DNA from: Isoptericola sp. AK164
GTDB taxonomy: Bacteria > Actinomycetota > Actinomycetes > Actinomycetales > Cellulomonadaceae
Reading direction: 5' to 3'
DNA length: 64,000 nt
NCBI RefSeq assembly: GCF_029643425.1
Contig: NZ_CP119106.1
Coordinates: 3,100,001-3,164,000 of the forward strand
A program made the translations under genes and the position numbers. Shown one piece after another: positions 7,551-27,442 of this stretch. How positions within the stretch are numbered: position 1 is the first letter of the stretch; every line of letters starts with the position of its first letter. The notes under the pieces are model-generated. The model was not told where the DNA came from. It saw nothing but the letters and a program-made list of their open reading frames with translations, and made no database searches.

Positions 7551-7586
7551 ACCTCGGCCGGAGGTGGCCTACCTCGCGGTCAGGCG
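7529..7586. repeat. Short array of the 20-bp CTACCTC repeat
   Basis: CTACCTC begins at 7529, 7549 and 7569, an exact 20-bp period. A single GAGGTAG in the opposite orientation lies at 7508-7514. The last unit contains the stop codon of the pectate lyase gene. The same motif, period and face-to-face arrangement occur at 56641-57148. Confidence 0.75.
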
Positions 7587-10500
7587 CACTGCTCCACCGC
7601 GGTCCAGGGGCCCCAGACGCTGTCGCCGGGTTCCTGCCCGCGAGTCCACCACAGCGCCCGGTAGGTGACGCCGTCGGACGACACCAGGTCGCCGCCGACG
7701 TACACCGTCGAGGCGTCCCACGACTCGACGCACTCGGCGACCGCCGGAGCGGCCTCGGCGGAGCCGACCTCGGTCCAGGGGCCCCACGCGGAGGCACCGG
7801 GCTCCTGGTTGCGGGTCCACCACCGGGCCTCGTAGACCGTGCCCTCGTGCTGCACGACGTCGCCCGCCACGTAGACGGCGCTGGCGTACCAGAGGCTCGG
7901 ACCGGGCTCGCCGCCCGACACCTCGGGCAGCAGCTCGATGGTCGTCGGGTCCGGGTTCGGCGTGAACCGCGCCCCGGTGTCCGACGGCGCCACGTCGGTG
8001 AGCTCGTAGAGCCCGTGCATCTCGATCGAGCCGTCCGCCGCGATCTCCGGCGTCACGGCCGAGGCGTCGACGGAGACGAACCAGTCCGCGCCGACGGAGG
8101 CGGGCCGCCCGTCGGACGCGTCCGCCGTCGTGCCGTCGAAGTAGTTCGACGGGTCCGTCAGCAGCGACGTGTCGTCCTGCTTCAGCCCGAGGGCGTCGGA
8201 GTCCGGGTTCTGCCAGGAGATGACGCCGCTCGCCTCGTAGGCGGTGGTGCCGGCGTTGGTCTCCAGCCGCACGCCCCGCTCGTTGTCGACGGTGGTGACG
8301 CCGTCGAGCCGGACGTCCGGGCCCGAGTTCGACGTCGCGCCGGTGGCGAGGTTGCCGTAGCTGAGCGCGTTGCGCAGCAGGTGGTCGCCCGGCATGGACT
8401 CGCCGCCGAGCTTGAACCCGTTGCCCTCGCCGGTCCACGTCGGGTCGTCCTCGAGGAACCCGTTGGCGTAGGCCACGGAGTCCTCGACGACGACGGTGCC
8501 GATCGGGCCGGTGGTGGACTTGGCGTACAGGTCCCAGCCGTCGTCGATGTTGTGGTGGGCGATGTTGTACCGCAGCACGTTGCCCTCGCCGACGGTGAGC
8601 TTGACCCCGAACCCGTCGGCGTCGTTCCCGCCGGTGTCCGCGTTGTTGTGCGACACCGAGGACAGGATCGTGTTGTGCGACGGCCACATCGACGGCGGCT
8701 CGGCGGAGAGCCCCGAGATCTGGATTCCCGTGTCCTTGTTGTGGTGGGACTCCACCCGCTCGACGACGTTGTGGTGGCCCTGGACGAGCATCGGCTTGGC
8801 CTTGTCGGCCGACCCGGTGATCTCCAGGTCGTAGACGTGCCACCAGTCACCGCGGATCACCAGGCCGCCGTCGGGCGACTCGCCGAGGTCCAGCACGGCA
8901 CGGTCGCCGGGCTCGGACATCAGGGTGATCGGGGCGCCCTCGGTGCCGTCGCGGCCCCGCTCGGCCACGATGTTGTGCTGCGGCGTGTACGTGCCGCCCG
9001 TCAGCACGATCTGCTGACCGGCCTGCGCGAAGTCGACCGCGGTGTGGATGTCCAGCGGGTCGTCCTGCGTCCCCGCGCCGTCCGCGGTGCCGTCGGGCGC
9101 GACCCAGATCGACTCGCCCGGCTCGCCGTAGGAGTCCACGGTGATCGTGACGGGCACGTCGACCGGGTCGAACGACTCCAGCTCCTCGTACTCTCCGAGC
9201 TGCGGCTGGTCCCCCTCCGGCGTGGCCCGCGCGGTGAGCTCGTTGACGCCCGGCTCGAGATCGACCGTGCCGAGGGCCTGCTCGCCGGGGACGAGCTCCA
9301 GGCCGTCGACGACGACGTCACCGGCCGCGTCGAGGATCTGCCCGGTGCCGTGGAAGTCGGCCACGAGCGGGACGTCGAGCTGCTGCTCCGGCGTCGTCCG
9401 GGTGACGTCGACCGACAGGTTCGTCGGCACGTACTCCGTCGGCGGCTCCTGGGCGGGCTCGTCGTCGTCCGGGTGGATCGTGGTGAAGTCCCACGAGGTG
9501 ACGTCCACGACGATCTTGCGGGCCGTGGCCATGCCGACGTAGAAGGTGTCGGCGTTCTGCTGCAGCAGCATCTCGGGGTCGTACTGGATGACCTCGATGT
9601 CCTCGCCGCCGTCGCCGGCGCCGCGCCAGATCGCGTGGAAGCCGGTGTTGGACCGGCGCAGCGTGAACTCGTAGACGTCGCCCTCGGCGAACTTCGGTCC
9701 CGAGGTGATCTCGGGGCGGTAGTCGGGGTCGAACTCCTCCGAGTCGCTGTCGTCGCGCGAGCCGGCGGTGTTGTCGTCGGTGGCTCCCGTGTACCCCTGG
9801 ACGAACCGAGCGCCCGGGGTGCCGTTGACGACGTCGTCGGTGCCGCCGTTGTAGCGGGTGACCACCGCGCCCGCGGAGTTGAAGTAGCGGTGCGGGGAGG
9901 ACTCGGCGACCAGGTCGTCGATGGCGATGATGCCGAACCCGGACTGGTTGTCCTTCGTCGAGCCGTCGACCACCTCGAAGGTGGCGTTCAGCGTGAAGTT
10001 CTCCTCTTCCGGGTCGATCTCGGTGAAGTAGTACTGGAAGCCGTCCTCGGAGCTCGCGAACTTCGTGGAGCTGTCCTTGGCGTCGAAGGTGATCGTGCCG
10101 TCGCCGTGGTCGACGACCTGACCCCCGGAGCCGGCGTTGGAGCCGACGTCGGCGATCTGCCAGCGTTCCACGGAGGTGGCGACCTCGACGTCCGTCGCCG
10201 GACCGGCCGCCGCGTCCGCACCGCGGTGCGCCACGACGCGGACCTGGTACGTGGCGCCGGCCGTGAGGCCCGGCACGTCCACGGCCGTGCTGGTCACGCC
10301 GTCGACGGCCGTGGCGAAGTCCGCCCCGCCCTGGCTCGTCTCGACGGAGTAGGTCTCGGCCTCGTCGGTGGCGGTCCACTCGAGGCTCACCGTGGCGTCG
10401 GTGCCGTCGACGGCGGAGGTCAGGGCCCCGGTGATCTCCGGTCCGACCAGCGGCAGGGAGAAGCCGTCGAACCCGACGCGCGCGGAGGTCTTCGGCTCGC

Positions 10501-11314
10501 CCTCGCCGGCGCGGGTGAGCCGCACCTCGACCTCGTAGTCGCCGGAGGCCGGCGGGGTGAGCGTCAGGGTGCCGCCGGGTCCGTCCTCGCCCGTGATCGC
10601 CTGGTCGACCTTCGCGCCGGAGGCGTCGTAGAGGGTCGCGTAGGCGACGTCGCCGCCATCGTCGCCGAGGAGGCCGGTGTAGTCGACCTCCAGGTCCGCG
10701 GGGTCCGCGGGGTCGAGGGCGATGCCGTCGACCACCGGCGCCGCGACGTCGGCCCAGGGCGCCCGCTCGACCGGGTCGCTCGCGCCGAGCTGGGCGAAGA
10801 AGACGTTGACCCCCGAGCTCGGGGAGGTGAGGAAGTAGTCGCCGGCGGCCGGGATGTCGACGGTCTCGGTGACGATCGGCTCGCCGCTGTCGTCGGCGAG
10901 CGCCGGGATCTGGGCGATCTCGCCGGTGGCGTCGTGCAGCGCCAGGACCCGGTCGCTGCTGCCGGAGCTGCTGCGGGTCTGGACGACGAGCTCGGTCGGC
11001 TCGGTGGCGGTGAAGTGGATCGACCGGTACTCCGCGCTGCCCGAGCCGTTGAGCTTGAGCCGCTGGGTGTAGACCTCCCCCCGATCGGAGAGGCGGTCGG
11101 TGTCCCCGACGGTCACCTTCTTGGCCTCGGTGGCCCGGACGGTGAAGTCCTCGGTGGCCACGAAGTCGGCCGTGAAGTCGCCGGGCGTCAGGTCGTCGGC
11201 GTTCAGGGCGGTGGCGGGTCCGACCGCGGCTGCGGTCACCGCCCCCGTCGCGGTCAGGGCCGCGGCCGTCAGCACGGCCAGCGACGAGCGGATGCGCTTG
11301 CCTGTCGGTGTCAT
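7580..11314 (-). CDS. Secreted pectate lyase-like beta-helix protein (PL9-like) with two CBM5/12 modules
   Basis: This is a 1244-residue secreted protein. A Tat-free Sec signal peptide covers about residues 1-36 (TGKRIRSSLAVLTAAALTA...). Beta-sandwich domains come next, then an FN3-like domain (about 295-385) and a concanavalin-like domain (about 390-620). A right-handed beta-helix (about 735-1110) contains NADTGGNDADGFGVK and repeated H-N-N/N-x-D turns, matching the calcium-dependent polysaccharide lyase family 9 core. The two C-terminal modules (1140-1183 and 1196-1244, W-Y/D-x-S-x-V-Y-x-x-G-D, W-W-T-R, W-G-P-W) look like CBM5/12 domains. Expected activity is cleavage of pectate outside the cell. 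The gene is alone, with LacI-type palindromes upstream. Confidence 0.85.
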   Translation of the reverse strand: MTPTGKRIRSSLAVLTAAALTATGAVTAAAVGPATALNADDLTPGDFTADFVATEDFTVRATEAKKVTVGDTDRLSDRGEVYTQRLKLNGSGSAEYRSIHFTATEPTELVVQTRSSSGSSDRVLALHDATGEIAQIPALADDSGEPIVTETVDIPAAGDYFLTSPSSGVNVFFAQLGASDPVERAPWADVAAPVVDGIALDPADPADLEVDYTGLLGDDGGDVAYATLYDASGAKVDQAITGEDGPGGTLTLTPPASGDYEVEVRLTRAGEGEPKTSARVGFDGFSLPLVGPEITGALTSAVDGTDATVSLEWTATDEAETYSVETSQGGADFATAVDGVTSTAVDVPGLTAGATYQVRVVAHRGADAAAGPATDVEVATSVERWQIADVGSNAGSGGQVVDHGDGTITFDAKDSSTKFASSEDGFQYYFTEIDPEEENFTLNATFEVVDGSTKDNQSGFGIIAIDDLVAESSPHRYFNSAGAVVTRYNGGTDDVVNGTPGARFVQGYTGATDDNTAGSRDDSDSEEFDPDYRPEITSGPKFAEGDVYEFTLRRSNTGFHAIWRGAGDGGEDIEVIQYDPEMLLQQNADTFYVGMATARKIVVDVTSWDFTTIHPDDDEPAQEPPTEYVPTNLSVDVTRTTPEQQLDVPLVADFHGTGQILDAAGDVVVDGLELVPGEQALGTVDLEPGVNELTARATPEGDQPQLGEYEELESFDPVDVPVTITVDSYGEPGESIWVAPDGTADGAGTQDDPLDIHTAVDFAQAGQQIVLTGGTYTPQHNIVAERGRDGTEGAPITLMSEPGDRAVLDLGESPDGGLVIRGDWWHVYDLEITGSADKAKPMLVQGHHNVVERVESHHNKDTGIQISGLSAEPPSMWPSHNTILSSVSHNNADTGGNDADGFGVKLTVGEGNVLRYNIAHHNIDDGWDLYAKSTTGPIGTVVVEDSVAYANGFLEDDPTWTGEGNGFKLGGESMPGDHLLRNALSYGNLATGATSNSGPDVRLDGVTTVDNERGVRLETNAGTTAYEASGVISWQNPDSDALGLKQDDTSLLTDPSNYFDGTTADASDGRPASVGADWFVSVDASAVTPEIAADGSIEMHGLYELTDVAPSDTGARFTPNPDPTTIELLPEVSGGEPGPSLWYASAVYVAGDVVQHEGTVYEARWWTRNQEPGASAWGPWTEVGSAEAAPAVAECVESWDASTVYVGGDLVSSDGVTYRALWWTRGQEPGDSVWGPWTAVEQCA

Positions 11315-19780: not shown

Positions 19781-19982
19781 GGCTCCTCCTCGTCGTCGTC
19801 CCCGGCCAGCGTAGAGCCGACCGGCCCCGCACGGCAGAGGGTGAAATGTCCGCGTCCGGTTCATGATTCCTGGTCCTTTTGTTCCTTTTTCTCCGCACTG
19901 GTGGTGTGATGTCCCTCGTCCCCCTCTTCCTTCCCGCGCACCGTGCGTGCGCGCCGTCCTGCCGAAGGGATCGATCACCATC

Positions 19983-21644
19983 GTGAAGAAGCTGCTCGCG
20001 AGCGTCGCGACCACGACGCTCGCGCTCGGAGGGCTCCTCGTCGCCACCGCGACACCCGCCTCCGCGCACACCCCCGACATCGACGCCACCTGCGACTCGC
20101 TCGCGGTCGACCTGCGCTACTACTCCGGCGCGCAGGTCACGGTCACCGTCGACGACGAGACCCGCGACGACTCGACCTTCACGTCGAGCTACGCCGCGAC
20201 GTTCACGCTCGACGACAGCGTCGCGCACACCTGGCACGTCGACGTGGACGCCCACGACGACGACCAGTGGGACCGGGAGTGGTCCGGGCTGACGGAGCCC
20301 TGCACCACCGACGTCGAGCCCGCCGACGAGCTCGTCACCGGCCTGTACCTGTACGAGAAGGTGCACCCGGACCAGCCGGCCGCGTGGCACAACTCGGGTC
20401 CGCAGGAGCTGATCGTCCAGCGGGACGGCCACAGCTTCTGGGACGCCGACGACTTCCCCGTCGAGGAGCTCCCGCAGGAGGTCTGCGGCACGGGCTGGGG
20501 CGTCCAGCAGGACGTCGCCGACGTCACGGACGGGTTCGAGATCCCCCTCGAGATCGTCTGGCCGGAGGGCGGCTTCGACGGCCACCTCGTGGACTGGCGC
20601 CACGACGACCTGACCGACCTCGTCGAGGTCCCCGCGTGCGACGCGCCGGAACCGGTGACGCTGCCCGCGCCCACCCCCGTCGAGGAGTGCGACGCCGAGG
20701 CCCGCGTGGACCTCCCCTCCTCCGAGCTCGCGGACTACTCCACCACCTGGAGCGACGACCGTTCCGAGGCCGTCGTCACGGCGACCCCGGCGGAGGGCGT
20801 GGTGCTCGCCGACGGTGCGCAGACCTCGTGGACCTTCGCGTTCACCGGGGCCGAGTGCGACGTCGAACCGGTCCTCGTCGTGCCCGAGCCGCCCACCGTC
20901 GTCGACGTCTGCGGCACCGACAACGACGATCTCGTCGTCCCGCAGGACAGCGAGCAGGTCACCTACTCCTCCACGCACGAGGGTGTCGTGGCCACGGCCG
21001 CCGAGGGCGCCGTCTTCGGCGACCTGCCGGACGGGTACACCGCGGTCGACGACACGACGGCCCGCTACCCCGTGGACGGGACCTTCACCGACACGTCGTG
21101 CGAGCTCGTGCCGGGCGACGTCGCCGCCGTCTGCGAGGGGGAGGTCCCGTTCCTCGCCTACGAGGTGAACCTGCCCGAGGGCGTCGAGGCCGACGGCGAG
21201 ACGCCGCTGACCGTGACGTTCCTCCACCCGGGCGACGGTGACGACGTCGTGCTCACCGACCAGCCGCTCGCCGGACGCGTGGTGTGGCCCGGAGCGTCGA
21301 CCACCGAGCCGCTGCAGTGGCCGGGCTGGGAGCTCCAGGAGGACGGCACCTACGTCGAGACCGAGGGCAACTACGCCTGGACCCGCGACGGCGTCCGGGT
21401 GCTGTTCGAGGTCAACCCGGACCACTCGACCGTCGTCGAGTACCCGGCGGCGTCGGACACCTGCGCGAACCCGCCGTCGGACGACGGCACCGAGGTCCCC
21501 GCGGAGACCGTCGCCGAGAGCACTCCCGAGGCCGAGCTGCCGCGCACCGGCGCCACGGTGGGCGTGGTCGCCGGCGTCGCCGCGCTGCTCGTGGCGGCGG
21601 GCGTGAGCCTGTTCGTCGCACGCCGCCGCCTGCACCGGGGCTGA
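19983..21644 (+). CDS. LPXTG-anchored surface protein
   Basis: This 553-residue exported protein has a signal peptide at residues 1-28 ([18 protein letters not shown]...ASA), then beta-rich acidic domains with paired cysteines spaced along the chain. The C-terminal sorting signal is LPRTG at 519-523, followed by a hydrophobic helix and an Arg-rich tail, so sortase would attach it to peptidoglycan. No sortase gene is in the window. The ectodomain is very acidic and Thr/Val-rich with no family I recognise; two segments (about 240-290 and 310-360) look like repeats of one fold. The GTG start is set by the Lys-Lys signal-peptide start; the ribosome-binding site is weak. Confidence 0.85.
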
Positions 21645-22411: not shown

Positions 22412-25400
22412 TCAGCGGTACTCGCAGAGCCCGACCCGCTCCCACTGGCGCCACTGGCCCATCCAGACGCCCTCCCACTCGGCGGCGTCGTACCACGACT
22501 CGTCGGCGCCGCCCTGGCCGCGCCCCTTCTTCTCCGCAGCCCGGCTCCGGTCCGCCGCAGGCAGCCCCTCGTCGTCCCAGCCCTCGTAGCGGTAGTCGAA
22601 GCCGTTCCAGGAGCGCACGTCACCGGCCTCGTAGTGCTCGCCCCAGGCGATGCGCGGGCTGCACCAGCCGGCCTCGGCGGCGGTGAACGTGTCGGCCTCG
22701 AGAGCGGTCGACCAGCTCCCGGCGGACACGGTCCACCGTCCGCCCTGGCGGCCGTCGATCCGTCGCGGCTCGACGGTGCGGGTCGTCCCGGCCGGCACCG
22801 CCACGTCGGTGTCCAGCCCTCGGGGACCGTGGACGTGGAAGACGACGTCCACGGTCGACGCGGTGTTGTCGAGGACGACGCCGACCTCCCGCCAGGACTT
22901 CGCGTAGTCGCCGTAGCGGTCCATCTGGACAGCGCTCTCGTCGAGCGACGCCCCGGGGGCGACGACGATGCACGAGGTGCCCTCGTGCTCGACCGTCCGC
23001 TGCACGGAGTACGCGGTGCCCTCGATGGTCCGGGTCAGGCGCACCGTGACCGCTCCGGCATCGAGCCGCGCCCCGCCGGCGGCGTCGACGAACCGGACCG
23101 CGCCGTCGGCCGGCAGCTTCCGGGTCGTGACCGCGTCGCCGTCGCGCAGCAGCGTCGCACGCCACGTGCGCCCGCCGTCGGCGACCACGTCGACCACGAG
23201 CCGCGCGTCGCCACCCTCGCACTGCGGCGCCGCCTCGACCTCGGCGTCCGGCCAGTCCGGGGCGGTCGAGCAGCCCGCGAACTCCAGGTCGACCGTGGCC
23301 AGCGGCCGGCCGTCGGCCAGGACCTCCGCCTCGCCGGTGCCCCACGGCACGTCCACGTCCACCCGGGCGGACTCTCCGCCGGCGAGCCGGACCTCCTCGA
23401 CGTGGTCGCCGAGATCGATCGTGAACACCACCGGCAGCGTCGAGTCCCGGTTGTCGAGCGGGACGGTGAAGGTGCGCGTGGACGTCTCGGCGACCGGGTC
23501 GTAGCGGCAGGCACCGGCGGGCACGACCTTGCCCGCCGCCGGGGAGATCGTCGCCGCCGGGAACGTCGCGGTCGGCGTGGTGGCCGGCACGACGCCCGCA
23601 GCGGGCTGGTCCCCGTCGGCGTCGGTGACCCACCGGTACAGGTCGAAGGACACCTCGCCCGCGTCCGTGCTGGTGCTGCCGGTGGCGACGGAGAACGTGC
23701 TGCGCTCGCCGGCGTCGAGCCGGATGCGGTCGGCCTCGGACCCGAGCGCCGACATCCCGGCCTGCATCGGCTCGTCGCCATGGTTCACGATCGTGCCCTG
23801 GACCGTCACGCGGCCGCCGTCGTTGACCACCCGAGCGGAGGTCTCCACGTCCCAGCGCGGGTCGTAGCACTCGGCCGCGCCGTGCGTCCCGGAGCCCACC
23901 GTGCGGCTGTAGGTCACGCCCGCCACGGTCGTCGAGACCGTCCACGAGCCGCTGCCCGCCGGCACGCGCAGACCGTCGGGGACCGTGAGCGTGGCCCGCT
24001 CCCCCGGTGCCAGCTCCGGGTTCTTCGACGCCGTGGACCCGGCGGCACGCAGCACCGCGGTGACCGTCCGCCCCGTCGTGTTCGTGTAGCTGCCGATCAC
24101 CACCGCGTCGGCCTCGCCGACGCCACCCGTGGCGCGGCACTCGGCCCGGATCCCGCCGACCCCGGCGAGGACCCCGGCCCAGCCCCTCGGCACCTCGACC
24201 GAGGACGCCGAGGAGATGGTCGGGCCGTCGGTCGCCGTCGGCTCGACCGCGACGGCGTAGGCGCCCGCCGCGGTGCGGCCGTCGGCGACCACCGTCGCGG
24301 TCGCCTCGACGACCTCGCCGGGCTGCAGCGCACCGCCGGTGCAGAGCCACGCGCCGACGTCGGCCACCTCGCACCCCAGCCCCCCGGACACCGAGTGCGG
24401 GACGAGGCCGGCCGGGACGCGGACGCGGACGGCCCAGTCCTCGGCGGTCACCTGGTCCCCGGTGTTGCGGACCGAGAACGGCACAGCCGCCAGCCCGGGG
24501 TTGGCCGCCACCTCGACGTCGGCGGCCCGCGTCGTCAGCTCCGGGCCGAACATGTCGACGCGGGTGGGCGGCAGCGCCAGCCGGCGCGCCTCCAGACCCT
24601 CCGCCCAGACCTCGGCCACGACGTCGTAGGAGCCGCCGTCGCGCACGAACACGGGCACCCGCACCGTGGCGAGCTCGTCGGCCTCGATGGTGCCGAGCCG
24701 GCAGAGCACCTCCTGCGGCTGCGCGGTCGCGGTGCAGGGCAGAGTCTCGAGCGTCAGGGGGCGCGGCACCGGCGCGGCACCGCGGACGGTCGCGGCCCGG
24801 GCGTGCTGCATGCCGGCCGGCAGGGTGAGCCGCACGTGGGCGTCGACGGCAGGACGCCCGCCCGGGTTGGTCACCTGGAAGGTCAGGTACTCGGTCGCCC
24901 GCGGCTGGAGCTCCTCGGCGGCCTGCGGCACGAGCACGCTGACGACCGCCGGGTCCACCACACCGAGCTCGTCCTGCGCCGACGGGTCCACGAGCAGGTT
25001 CGCCGGGTCGGTGGGGTCCTCGCTGGGCTCCGGGCTCGGCGCGGGCGATGCCGCGGCCTCGTCACCGTCGGTGGTGGGCCAGGGCGTCGACTCGACGGCC
25101 AGGAGCGGGCCGTCCGGGATCTCCTGCGAGACGTCCGCGTCGCCGATCGCGCCCAGGACGGAGACGACGCCGACCGTAGCGGCGGCGACGGCCCCGGTGG
25201 ACGCGGCGACCGTCGCCCCGGAGACGCCGGCGGCGGTGGCCCCGGCAGCCGTGGCTCCGGCGGCCGTCGCCGCGGTCCCCGTCGCGGCCGTCGCGGTCCC
25301 GGCCGAGGTGAGCGTCACCGTGGTGGCCCCGGCCGCGGTGGTGCTCGCCGCCGTCGCCGCACCGGCCCCGGCAGCTCCCGCACCGGCCCCGGCAGCTCCC

Positions 25401-26497
25401 GCACCGGCCCCCGCGCTCGCCCCCGCGGCACCGGCACCGGCAGCTCCCGCACCTGCGCCGGCGGCACCGGCTCCGGTGGCCCCTGCGCCCGCAGCGCCGG
25501 TGGCGGCCGAGGTCCCGACCGCCGTCCCCGTGCCGGCGCCCGCAGCACCGGTCCCGGCTCCCGCAGCACCCGCAGCACCGGTCCCGGTGCCCGCGGCAGC
25601 GCCCGTGCCGGCCGCTCCGGAGGCCCCCGCCCCGGCGACCCCGGCACCCGCGCCCGCGCCCGCACCGGCACCGAACGTCGCCGCACCCAGCGGGAGCGCA
25701 CCGAGGATCGCCGTGCCGGCCAGGCCCACCACGAGCGGGGCCACGACGGCCCGCATGCCGTGGGCGACGTCCCCGAGCTCGAGCACCAGCGTGCGGCACT
25801 CGGCGCACACCTCGAGGTGGCGGTCGACCTTGGTGACCTCGCGGCGGGCCAGGCTGCCGCGCACGTACCCGCCGAGCAGCGGGTTGACGACCCGGCACGA
25901 GTCGGCAGGCTCGCTGCTCAGGTGCTGCTGCAGGTAGCCGACCCGCAGACCCTCTCGAGCCCGGTAGGCCAGCGCCGAGACGCCGTTCGGCGTCAGCCCG
26001 AGGATGGGCGCGACCTCGGCCGGGGAGAGCCCTTCGACCTCGGTGTACCAGAGCACGGCCTGCCATCGTTCGGGCAGCGACTCGTAGGCGCGGGCGACCA
26101 CCGAGTTCTCGAACCCGGCCAGTGCCGGGTCCTCCGGCGACGCCGACGGCCCGAGGGCGTGCTCGAAGGTGCCGTCGTCGGCCGTCGGGCGGGTCCGGCG
26201 TGCACCGTGCGCGACGTCGGCGGCCAGGCGTCGCACCACGGTGAAGAGGTAGGCGCGGAAGTGCGTGTCGGGGCCGTTGCCCTGCTGCAGCATGCCGAGG
26301 ACGCGCTGGAAGGCGTCGGAGACGACGTCGTCCGCGTCGCCGTCGCACCGGACGTACTGCCGGGCCAGGACCCGGGCGGCACCGCTGTGCCGCTCGTAGA
26401 GGGCGCCGTACGCGTCGAGGCTGCCTCCGCGCACCTCGAGGATCAGCTCCCCGTCGCTGGGGGCTGTTCCGCCTGATCCCACGTAGACGTCGGTCAC
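22412..26497 (-). CDS. ECF-type sigma factor fused to zinc-finger, membrane segment, Gly/Ala tract and large outer region
   Basis: This 1361-residue fusion has sigma-70 region 2 at about 25-95, region 4 at about 135-190 (LSPAEVAPILGLTPNGV helix-turn-helix) and an anti-sigma-type zinc finger at 201-234 (Cys201, His227-x3-Cys231-x2-Cys234). A membrane helix follows at about 248-272. A tract made almost only of Gly, Ala, Thr and Ser (about 272-427) leads to a second hydrophobic segment (about 428-452). A Pro/Glu-rich spacer and about 850 residues of Ig-like beta domains follow, ending in a CBM5/12-like module (A-W-G-x-x-Y-x-A-G-D-V near residue 1285). ECF groups with C-terminal zinc-finger, membrane and carbohydrate-binding extensions are known in actinobacteria (ECF52-like); the group fit here is my inference. 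Start GTG at 26497; an ATG 20 codons earlier is possible. Confidence 0.88.
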   Translation of the reverse strand: MTDVYVGSGGTAPSDGELILEVRGGSLDAYGALYERHSGAARVLARQYVRCDGDADDVVSDAFQRVLGMLQQGNGPDTHFRAYLFTVVRRLAADVAHGARRTRPTADDGTFEHALGPSASPEDPALAGFENSVVARAYESLPERWQAVLWYTEVEGLSPAEVAPILGLTPNGVSALAYRAREGLRVGYLQQHLSSEPADSCRVVNPLLGGYVRGSLARREVTKVDRHLEVCAECRTLVLELGDVAHGMRAVVAPLVVGLAGTAILGALPLGAATFGAGAGAGAGAGVAGAGASGAAGTGAAAGTGTGAAGAAGAGTGAAGAGTGTAVGTSAATGAAGAGATGAGAAGAGAGAAGAGAAGASAGAGAGAAGAGAGAAGAGAATAASTTAAGATTVTLTSAGTATAATGTAATAAGATAAGATAAGVSGATVAASTGAVAAATVGVVSVLGAIGDADVSQEIPDGPLLAVESTPWPTTDGDEAAASPAPSPEPSEDPTDPANLLVDPSAQDELGVVDPAVVSVLVPQAAEELQPRATEYLTFQVTNPGGRPAVDAHVRLTLPAGMQHARAATVRGAAPVPRPLTLETLPCTATAQPQEVLCRLGTIEADELATVRVPVFVRDGGSYDVVAEVWAEGLEARRLALPPTRVDMFGPELTTRAADVEVAANPGLAAVPFSVRNTGDQVTAEDWAVRVRVPAGLVPHSVSGGLGCEVADVGAWLCTGGALQPGEVVEATATVVADGRTAAGAYAVAVEPTATDGPTISSASSVEVPRGWAGVLAGVGGIRAECRATGGVGEADAVVIGSYTNTTGRTVTAVLRAAGSTASKNPELAPGERATLTVPDGLRVPAGSGSWTVSTTVAGVTYSRTVGSGTHGAAECYDPRWDVETSARVVNDGGRVTVQGTIVNHGDEPMQAGMSALGSEADRIRLDAGERSTFSVATGSTSTDAGEVSFDLYRWVTDADGDQPAAGVVPATTPTATFPAATISPAAGKVVPAGACRYDPVAETSTRTFTVPLDNRDSTLPVVFTIDLGDHVEEVRLAGGESARVDVDVPWGTGEAEVLADGRPLATVDLEFAGCSTAPDWPDAEVEAAPQCEGGDARLVVDVVADGGRTWRATLLRDGDAVTTRKLPADGAVRFVDAAGGARLDAGAVTVRLTRTIEGTAYSVQRTVEHEGTSCIVVAPGASLDESAVQMDRYGDYAKSWREVGVVLDNTASTVDVVFHVHGPRGLDTDVAVPAGTTRTVEPRRIDGRQGGRWTVSAGSWSTALEADTFTAAEAGWCSPRIAWGEHYEAGDVRSWNGFDYRYEGWDDEGLPAADRSRAAEKKGRGQGGADESWYDAAEWEGVWMGQWRQWERVGLCEYR

Positions 26498-26680
26498 GAT
26501 CGTCCGCTTCTCGCCCTGTTGTCGGCCACTGCACCCGCATCGACACGGGACAGACACACTCTAGCCGCACGACCCGCACGTCGCCGAGCCCTCACCGGGT
26601 GAATCATGGAGTAGCACGTTTCACCCACCCGCAGGTCGGGTTTCTGCGTCATAGTGGGAGCCCATGGGAGTCACATCAGC

Positions 26681-27442
26681 ATGAGCCTGCCCACCGGCGA
26701 CACCTTTGCCGTCGACACGCGCGAACGCTGGCGCACCATGAGCCTGACCGAGGTCTGGCTGCGCCCGGGCGACTGGTACCACCCTGCGGTGGACGCCGTG
26801 GTCGAGGCGATCATCGACGGCAGGTCGCCCGAGGCTCCCGCGCACCGCCTCGGCGGGGCACGCAGCGCCGCCGGCATCGGCCTCGACGAGACCCTCGAGG
26901 ACGTCGCCTGCCTGTACCGCACGGTGGGCGCCCCCGTGGACGTCGACGTGGTCCGCGGCGCGGCGCTGGGCTGGGTGCAGGGCCGTGACGGTCGCCCCAC
27001 CCTGAGCGGGGTGCGCGATCCGGCGACCGGCCTGCCGACCGCCGACTACCTCGGTGAACGGCTCCGCGAGACCTACGGCCGGGCGGCGCGGGACACCGCC
27101 GCGGTGACCGACTCGCACTGCCTCGTCGTCGTCGACGTCGCGGTCGAGGCTCTCGACCCGTGGCAGCGCATGGCGCGGGCCGCCTCGGTCGGCCGGACGC
27201 TGGACCAGGTCTTCGGCGACGGGCACCCCATGGCCTCGTTGAGCGACGGCGTCTTCACCGTGCTGTGCGAACGCACGCCCGACCTCCCCCGCCTGTCCCA
27301 GAGCGTGCGCCGCATCATCGAGCGCAACGCCCAGATCCTCGGGGTCGCCGAGACGATGCGGCGACCGGTCCGGGTGTGGATGGAGCGGCTGCCGCAGGAC
27401 CACGCGGCGGCGCTGAACCTGCTCGAGCACCTGCGGCGCTGA
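26681..27442 (+). CDS. Degenerate GGDEF-like protein
   Basis: This 253-residue cytoplasmic protein has an N-terminal helical region (1-105). The segment R-D-P-A-T-G-L-P-T-A-D-Y-L (about 117-129) is the usual opening of a GGDEF diguanylate cyclase domain. The catalytic GG(D/E)EF itself is absent: the corresponding place reads D-G-H-P-M-A-S-L-S-D-G-V-F, so cyclase activity is unlikely and a regulatory or binding role is more plausible. The ATG at 26681 has a GGGAG site ten bases upstream; an in-frame GTG at 26654 has none. The gene diverges from the sigma-factor fusion. Confidence 0.7.
   Translation: MSLPTGDTFAVDTRERWRTMSLTEVWLRPGDWYHPAVDAVVEAIIDGRSPEAPAHRLGGARSAAGIGLDETLEDVACLYRTVGAPVDVDVVRGAALGWVQGRDGRPTLSGVRDPATGLPTADYLGERLRETYGRAARDTAAVTDSHCLVVVDVAVEALDPWQRMARAASVGRTLDQVFGDGHPMASLSDGVFTVLCERTPDLPRLSQSVRRIIERNAQILGVAETMRRPVRVWMERLPQDHAAALNLLEHLRR

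Follow-up and report, generated by a model that had tools for sequence, protein, structure and literature searches.

What does a sigma factor do when it carries its own inhibitor, a membrane segment and a large outer region in a single chain? The question is raised by a gene of Isoptericola sp. AK164 at positions 22412-26497 (minus strand) of a 64,000-nucleotide stretch of contig NZ_CP119106.1, here called the window. The gene encodes an extracytoplasmic function (ECF) sigma factor that continues through a zinc-finger anti-sigma domain, two hydrophobic segments flanking a tract made largely of glycine and alanine, and an extended C-terminal region. We think it probable that the product is a one-chain sigma/anti-sigma surface sensor of the ECF52 kind that spans the membrane at residues ~428-452 and is released by proteolysis.

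Domain plan of the fusion protein

The reading frame runs without interruption from a GTG at 26497 to a stop at 22412-22414 on the minus strand, a total of 1361 codons. The chain begins with ECF sigma domains and a zf-HC2 domain of the ZAS (zinc-associated anti-sigma) type, followed by hydrophobic segment A, the Gly/Ala/Thr/Ser tract, hydrophobic segment B, a stalk, immunoglobulin (Ig)-like modules and an end resembling carbohydrate-binding modules of families 5 and 12 (CBM5/12):

22412..26497, minus strand: sigma fusion gene, 1361 amino acids (aa); open frame, start position kept in the orthologue alignment
25952..26401, minus strand: ECF sigma domains, region 2 (residues 33-96) and region 4 (136-182), by Pfam and NCBIfam
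25793..25897, minus strand: zf-HC2/ZAS-type anti-sigma domain, residues 201-235 (Pfam, 7e-7)
25685..25753, minus strand: hydrophobic segment A, residues 249-271, by hydropathy and low-confidence short helices in an AlphaFold2 (AF2) model
25217..25684, minus strand: Gly/Ala/Thr/Ser tract, residues 272-427, a likely cytoplasmic linker by composition and family charge pattern
25142..25216, minus strand: hydrophobic segment B, residues 428-452, the likely single membrane span by hydropathy, family charge flanks and the ratio of nonsynonymous to synonymous substitution rates (dN/dS)
24944..25141, minus strand: acidic Pro-rich stalk, residues 453-518, by sequence; mostly low predicted local distance difference test (pLDDT) scores
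22682..24943, minus strand: about seven predicted Ig-like beta-sandwich modules, residues 519-1272, by AF2, Foldseek and VIA, with boundaries from our own reading of the strand pattern
22415..22681, minus strand: CBM5/12-like C-terminal module, residues 1273-1361, by profile comparisons

Matches to Sigma70_r2 (E 3e-10) and Sigma70_r4_2 (E 1.8e-6) lay above the Pfam cut-offs, and the NCBIfam sigma70-ECF model also matched above its cut-off (E 8.4e-19). The protein thus has regions 2 and 4 of an ECF sigma factor, and region 3 was not among the Pfam matches. The sigma fold matched sigma/anti-sigma structures such as 1or7 and 5wuq. The zf-HC2 match, also above cut-off, places a C-terminal zinc finger in the same chain as the sigma factor, as in ECF52-type proteins, and its probable zinc ligands (C201, H227, C231 and C234) were invariant across 39 aligned sequences. 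After the zinc finger, hydropathy showed two hydrophobic segments; ECF52-type proteins have at least one predicted membrane helix. A preliminary description of this locus had proposed a cytoplasmic sigma factor joined to a large extracellular region, and our results support this, the region being probably exported. It had also counted one membrane segment. A hydrophobic segment is indeed present, but there are two, one on either side of the tract, and ~909 residues follow segment B.

The fusion is conserved among orthologues

Residues 1-250 were used to search 58 genomes, 56 of which had a match at E 0.001, ordinary sigma factors included. Beyond the window genome, 30 genomes gave a strong match (E 1e-70 or better). 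We fetched the 25 without a contig-end cut, leaving out G002, G015, G020 and G022, which met contig ends, and G016, a fragment; with 13 weaker relatives this made 38. All 25 complete orthologues encode the fusion as a single open chain of 920-1561 aa. This rules out a frameshift or chance fusion for the family: neither a frameshift joining two genes nor a lack of fused relatives, the two outcomes that the preliminary description had named as speaking against it, was found.

Named relatives were taken as the best 80 of 311 matches from a scan of genome contigs, and 79 of these 80 carry actinobacterial names; the exception (L125) is named Planococcus, a label judged by name alone. Seventeen of the listed loci are at least 56% identical, and 13 of these encode chains of 989-2149 aa. 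The other four (4/17) give short chains, which weighs against our reading. In three of them (L074, L075 and L081) the chain ends at, or at most 133 nt from, a contig end. The fourth, a Cellulomonas timonensis copy (L083:5986-7353), stops at 455 aa within a long contig, with an odd stretch before the stop and a 798-codon open stretch directly after it. Its assembly may be at fault, or the gene may be broken. L103, L146 and L149, all of them weaker named relatives, encode 241-309 aa with stops far from the locus end, so some family members are without the outer part. A search of plasmids gave short matches to the sigma part alone, the best covering 17-18% of the query.

In seven draft genomes (L004, L012, L019, L030, L074, L075 and L081) the contig ends in or just after the part coding for the tract, as if assemblers break at this GC-rich stretch of low complexity.

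Kinship with ECF52-type fusions

Published work on such fusions is cited here from excerpts of the papers. ECF52 proteins are described as holding a zinc finger, a membrane region, a Pro-rich extension and a carbohydrate-binding domain in one chain (PMC5826349), and for some ECF52/53 proteins a glycosyl hydrolase or carbohydrate-binding domain has been predicted (PMC10766802). ECF48, 52 and 53 have C-terminal zinc-finger and membrane extensions, and proteolysis is the expected means of their activation (PMC8999054). The preliminary description was therefore right that ECF groups with zinc-finger, membrane and sugar-binding extensions are known: fusions of the ECF52/53 type have been published. 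In SCO4117 of Streptomyces coelicolor, the type member of ECF52, the sigma domain by itself can modulate development (PMC5826349). SCO4117 has been called the first characterized (2018) and the best understood (2022) case in these groups, and the excerpts give no ligand.

Judged by the published description (PMC5826349), the window protein shares with ECF52/SCO4117 the series of sigma factor, zinc finger and membrane segment, and perhaps a carbohydrate-binding-type end. Where SCO4117 has a Pro-rich region and an NPCBM domain, about seven Ig-like modules and then a CBM5/12-like end are seen in the window protein; its acidic stalk, which is Pro-rich and ~65 residues long, precedes the Ig-like modules. 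NPCBM had no hit in the window protein (Pfam) and none in its whole genome. In search of SCO4117-type proteins we looked for NPCBM in 198 genomes of the phylum, found a match in 17, and fetched six places. Five of the six, all from one genus, combine a sigma factor, zinc finger, Gly/Ala linker, hydrophobic segment and NPCBM match (one was scanned in full); the sixth is another kind of protein. Over 256 positions, the sigma and zinc part of the window protein shares 40% identity with one of these five, L180, a sigma-zinc finger-NPCBM protein that has a Gly/Ala-rich linker in the same place. L180 is 670 aa long compared with 1361 aa for the window protein, in which the tract is also longer.

A tree of 66 rows placed the window protein, the five NPCBM proteins and other relatives in one clan (support 97/99), set apart from 10 of 12 other sigma rows from its own genome (12 of 14 given). 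Two own-genome rows, L187 and L192, with less than 30% of columns filled, fell inside the clan, and several outgroup rows were long or poorly matched; because of these rows we take the split as supportive rather than final. Within the clan the branches met in an open fork, and the window protein did not group as sister to the NPCBM proteins. The kinship is well supported by the sequences, and the best supported reading is that the protein is a fused sigma/anti-sigma factor of the ECF52 kind, apparently a fast-diverging variant; the tree does not decide between ECF52, ECF53 and a new group.

Other known systems also differ. Canonical ECF sigma factors work with a separate membrane anti-sigma factor, whereas here both are in one polypeptide. 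The extensions of ECF53 and ECF48 reach up to 400 residues (PMC8999054), compared with ~1165 in the window protein. IutY (ECF243) also joins sigma and anti-sigma in one chain and is released by Prc and RseP; it acts in iron-starvation cell-surface signalling, and the excerpt mentions no Ig-like arm (PMC8999054). In the open-access literature, outside which most subscription journals lie, we found no match for an Isoptericola ECF sigma factor and did not meet an Ig-like arm with a CBM5/12-like tip, a long Gly/Ala linker or a regulon link. The kind of fusion is already known, and what is new here is the tract between two hydrophobic segments, the dN/dS of the outer region and the composite promoter element described below.

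Segment B is the likelier membrane span

To decide which hydrophobic segment crosses the membrane we turned to the family. In the 38 fetched relatives, the best 21 residues after the zinc domain had Kyte-Doolittle (KD) hydropathies of 1.53-2.74. Charges were counted in 105 distinct family proteins of 110, the remainder being without the motif or too short. Up to 25 residues before segment B, K+R numbered 77 and D+E 28 (29 proteins positive, 4 negative, 72 neither). In the 25 residues after it, K+R numbered 57 and D+E 312 (0 positive, 88 negative, 17 neither). K/R-rich stretches stand immediately before segment B in several of the relatives whose linkers are short. According to the positive-inside rule, the positively charged flank of a membrane span faces the cytoplasm. 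These flanks therefore indicate that segment B crosses outward from the cytoplasm, which would keep the tract inside the cell and leave segment A without a spanning role. Segment B is, on this moderately supported topology, the likelier span, and the tract is probably cytoplasmic and not wall-spanning. This makes less likely the earlier suggestion that the tract crosses the wall or is an extracellular protease-sensitive linker, since the charge pattern puts the span after it.

We read segment A as helix 4 of the anti-sigma domain or a membrane-associated helix. It contains a Pro (P254) present in at least 90% of aligned sequences, and lies where we take helix 4 of a zinc anti-sigma domain to follow.

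Several observations weigh on the other side. The window protein's own group has almost no linker charges, so the topology evidence rests on relatives, mainly those with charges close to segment B. Over the whole linker, charges were even (K+R 102, D+E 105). Linkers were slightly acidic in the 39 proteins of at least 900 aa (K+R 9, D+E 19), and those of at most 60 residues (57 proteins) gave a modest positive lead (K+R 80, D+E 58; 22 positive, 15 negative). In the window protein segment A is the more hydrophobic (KD 2.21, compared with 1.80 for segment B). AF2 gave segment A two short helices (248-257 and 259-265) at low confidence; these are compatible with a fourth anti-sigma helix and are no proof of one.

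Such observations leave room for segment A as the sole span. The tract would then lie outside, where it could cross the wall or form a protease-sensitive link, and segment B would be buried or wall-associated. The slightly higher hydrophobicity and good conservation of segment A (dN/dS 0.06-0.37) would suit this arrangement, as would a tract that has no deciding charge and family linkers that are even overall. It does not account for the K/R-rich stretches before segment B in short-linker relatives, for flanks that are positive before that segment and acidic after it, or for the conserved P254 at the presumed helix-4 position. We consider it unlikely, and the strongest of the alternatives.

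Composition and possible role of the tract

The tract is 156 residues long and has no charged residue. Over the 155 codons scored its composition was Ala 0.46, Gly 0.31, Thr 0.15, Ser 0.04 and Val 0.03. It had been called unusual, a view that needs tempering because many family members have Gly/Ala-rich linkers at the same place, among them the five NPCBM proteins, in which they are shorter. Length differs among relatives, and the kept feature is composition, not sequence. A scan for nucleotide tandem arrays in the tract gave short imperfect arrays alone, and we rejected the idea that the tract is such an array. In 25 of 26 genes the GC content at third codon positions was lower in the tract than in the rest of the gene, and in 26/26 GGT and GGA were commoner among tract Gly codons. 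These shifted synonymous codons disfavour the tract as a pure by-product of GC drift; selection against DNA of extreme GC content could mimic the shift.

One further proposal, which we regard as quite unlikely, treats the tract as a leash or as an in-built stop to proteolysis in the cytoplasm, which would allow sigma and anti-sigma to work within one chain. Cleavage in segment B would create a new C-terminus that attracts AAA+ proteases, and a Gly/Ala tract beside the folded anti-sigma domain would stall them, sparing the sigma factor. The proposal fits in that the composition of the tract is kept and not its sequence, with synonymous codons shifted as if protein composition were maintained. 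Gly/Ala repeats reportedly hinder ClpXP on highly stable domains (PMC9531181, excerpt). Against it, a short Gly/Ala tail supported degradation of GFP (PMC6677533, excerpt), and its weakness is that a stop at this point would spare the inhibitor along with the sigma factor.

The outer region is predicted to be an array of Ig-like modules

The preliminary description had called for structure prediction of the outer region. AF2, run with 20 sequences, predicted residues 455-1361 as all-beta (mean pLDDT 83.9, predicted template modelling score 0.44), the ~840 residues after the stalk almost wholly so. These scores suggest confident modules in an uncertain mutual arrangement. By strand pattern we divide the model into about seven Ig-like modules and an end module. 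Module pairs 3/6, 4/6 and 5/7 were alike in sequence (z 4.9-5.0 against 200 shuffles), and every other pair scored at most 3. The 12 cysteines of the outer region can all pair within modules, giving six plausible pairs that presumably form disulfides. The best structural matches were generic: a fibrillar adhesin domain (9ifr; Z 14.0, root-mean-square deviation 2.1, 117 aligned), integrin legs and cohesins. Foldseek and VIA both returned such generic sandwiches, with the VIA matches lying mostly on model residues 57-356 and barely covering later modules. Taken together, the sequence features of the arm support its export well.

The last module was compared with a clear CBM5/12-bearing protein in the window:

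7580-11314, minus strand: pectate-lyase-like beta-helix protein that carries fn3 and two CBM5/12 units (6.9e-17)

A resemblance to the CBM5/12 units of this protein had been noted earlier, and profile comparisons agree. A profile of 14 family end modules found the chitinase C domain 2d49 (E 2.1e-4). In hhalign this profile also matched the pectate-lyase-like protein, at its second CBM5/12-type unit (E 5.6e-5, probability 66). CBM_5_12 itself matched two of the 14 end modules (best E 0.0032), short of Pfam membership. What counts against the likeness is that the end module of the window protein had no Pfam hit at an E limit of 10 with HMMER filters on, and we do not count it as a direct CBM5/12 member. 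The likeness thus appears real and weak: as a family the end modules fit a chitin-binding profile and resemble CBM_5_12 without being filed as members. Polysaccharide sensing by the outer arm is possible.

The outer region evolves faster than the sigma part

We estimated dN/dS by the simple Nei-Gojobori method on MAFFT pair alignments with six relatives. The sigma domain gave 0.13-0.28 (0.13-0.17 in five of the six pairs), and the sigma and zinc parts together 0.13-0.47. Segment B gave 0.13-0.38. Values were 0.57-0.68 for the Ig region and 0.50-1.40 for the end module, which is short; those for the tract are unreliable, as alignment of its low-complexity sequence is arbitrary. The outer region thus evolves fast relative to the sigma part (~0.6 compared with ~0.15).

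The sigma gene shares a promoter element with probable surface-protein genes

Upstream of the sigma gene lies a composite element:

26558..26626, minus strand: composite promoter element, GGGTGAA-N16-TTCACCC (26597-26626) and TAGAGT (26558-26563)

In 17 of 26 upstream regions, and in one more (L004), TTCACCC is followed by a TANAGT hexamer at 29-31 or 39-41 bp. Three other such spaced pairs were found in 1.06 Mb of strand across the fetched loci, compared with 16 at sigma promoters. The two spacing classes differ by one helical turn, and having two of them argues against TTCACCC as the -35 box of this sigma factor. A scan of 26400-26800 for sigma-70 promoters found none, so the TAGAGT hexamer has no recognisable -35 partner. 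GGGTGAA is found upstream of TTCACCC in the window, in L004 and in L033-L038. The site may be a PHO box, which we take to consist of GTTCACC repeats; this is a lead only.

Searched across the whole genome, the inverted pair GGGTGAA/TTCACCC (gap 8-30) had three sites, which precede the sigma gene, an Flp-pilin-like gene and a gene whose product is probably sortase-anchored (TIGR01167 16.0 bits, cut-off 15.9; the LAVTG model just under its cut-off). The sites other than that of the sigma gene are at genome positions 109489-109522 and 3013086-3013118. The distance from the start of TTCACCC to that of TAG[A/C]GT is exactly 40 bp at each of the three.

We surveyed this surface protein in other genomes, examining 22 of 31 hits in 19 genomes. 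The nine best hits, one each in nine genomes, carry the element at 40-41 bp, and the 13 weaker ones are without it. A stricter pattern found 18 sites, spread over 14 of the 18 same-genus genomes, and 10 other genomes had none; a reversed control pattern gave none in the genus and two outside. Ten of these 18 loci were read. Five precede such a surface protein (L244, L246, L248 and L257, called by eye, and L249, not by eye), one lies upstream of a gene resembling GDP-mannose dehydratase (L254, by eye), and four (L247, L252, L259 and L261) are beside other or no clear genes. Combined, the element precedes such a surface gene in 13 of 18 same-genus genomes. Of six same-genus pilin loci, two (G000 and G002) have the pilin site at the 40-bp spacing.

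Upstream of the pilin gene at L203 (G007) are repeated GGGTGAA, AAATGTCC and TTCACCC boxes. They do not keep the 29-31 or 39-41 bp spacing and may belong to the same regulator, arranged differently. L202 and L205 have similar AAATGTCC...TTCA(C/T)CC boxes.

We read GGGTGAA/TTCACCC as a putative regulator site common to the sigma gene and surface genes. Because its promoter shares this site with the gene for the probable sortase-anchored protein, the sigma gene appears to belong to a cell-surface regulon. That the sigma factor itself acts on those promoters does not follow from the shared element.

Neighbouring genes

Two neighbours bear on the setting of the gene:

26681..27442, plus strand: divergent neighbour of ~253 aa, weakly GGDEF-like, adjoining the sigma gene in 25 of 25 orthologous loci
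19863-21641, plus strand: sortase-anchor-like surface protein, on the far side of upp (Gram_pos_anchor 19.4 bits against a cut-off of 20)

A profile of the divergent neighbour was weakly like the start of a GGDEF domain (7e6g, E 0.0016), and by eye there was no clear GGDEF motif. The window copy had no Pfam or NCBIfam family beyond noise. It is a possible functional partner of the sigma protein. The upp gene is near the sigma gene in 22 of the 25 orthologous loci. The surface protein, near it in six (L033-L038), is 40.7% identical over 145 aa to the element-bearing surface protein elsewhere in the genome. None of seven tested neighbours was present at the 13 fetched weaker relatives.

Proposed mechanism

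The protein is probably a one-component sensor made of an ECF sigma factor, a cis-acting zinc anti-sigma domain, a flexible cytoplasmic Gly/Ala linker, one span and an exported, disulfide-rich arm. At rest, the zinc domain would keep the sigma domains inactive at the membrane. A trigger at the cell surface, which could be a bound glycan or wall ligand, adhesion, or contact with the wall being lost, would set off two cleavages, first of the arm and next of the membrane span. Transcription of target genes would then be directed by the freed cytoplasmic part or, once trimmed further, by the sigma domains. Release and ligand are argued by analogy; proteolytic release was proposed for the relative SCO4117 (PMC5826349, PMC8999054). 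The genome encodes an M50 (site-2-type) protease (E 3.2e-44), and its main M50 gene lies at genome positions 1384935-1386038. This lends the scheme little, however: all 14 control genomes have M50 proteases, so their presence discriminates little.

Activation might instead proceed without proteolysis, through a conformational change of the zinc domain that switches a tethered sigma factor, with the tract serving as a leash to RNA polymerase. If cytoplasmic, the tract is rightly placed for a leash, and it keeps composition rather than sequence. This seems improbable to us given that proteolytic activation is expected for ECF48, 52 and 53 in a review (PMC8999054) and that the sigma domain of SCO4117 acts without the membrane part (PMC5826349). 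It is very improbable that segments A and B, both hydrophobic, both span and so leave the large C-terminal region in the cytoplasm, as the acidic Pro-rich stalk, six plausible cysteine pairs, adhesin-like sandwiches and CBM-like tip fit export and the charge flanks of segment B point the opposite way. We give hardly any weight to an outer region that is mainly an adhesin or wall anchor carrying a minor or vestigial sigma passenger: the region resembles adhesin and cohesin sandwiches and evolves fast, but it is the sigma and zinc part that is conserved, the reverse of what a vestigial domain would show.

Fused ECF sigma factors have been proposed as one-component surface sensors. In the branch described here, with one span at segment B and release by proteolysis as the reading we favour, the gene is conserved within one genomic neighbourhood, the adhesin-like arm evolves fast, and the promoter element also precedes a gene for a probable sortase-anchored protein. 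Together these features make the topology, release and regulon of such sensors directly testable in soil bacteria, and the likely cytoplasmic Gly/Ala linker shifts which part of the protein to examine for release.

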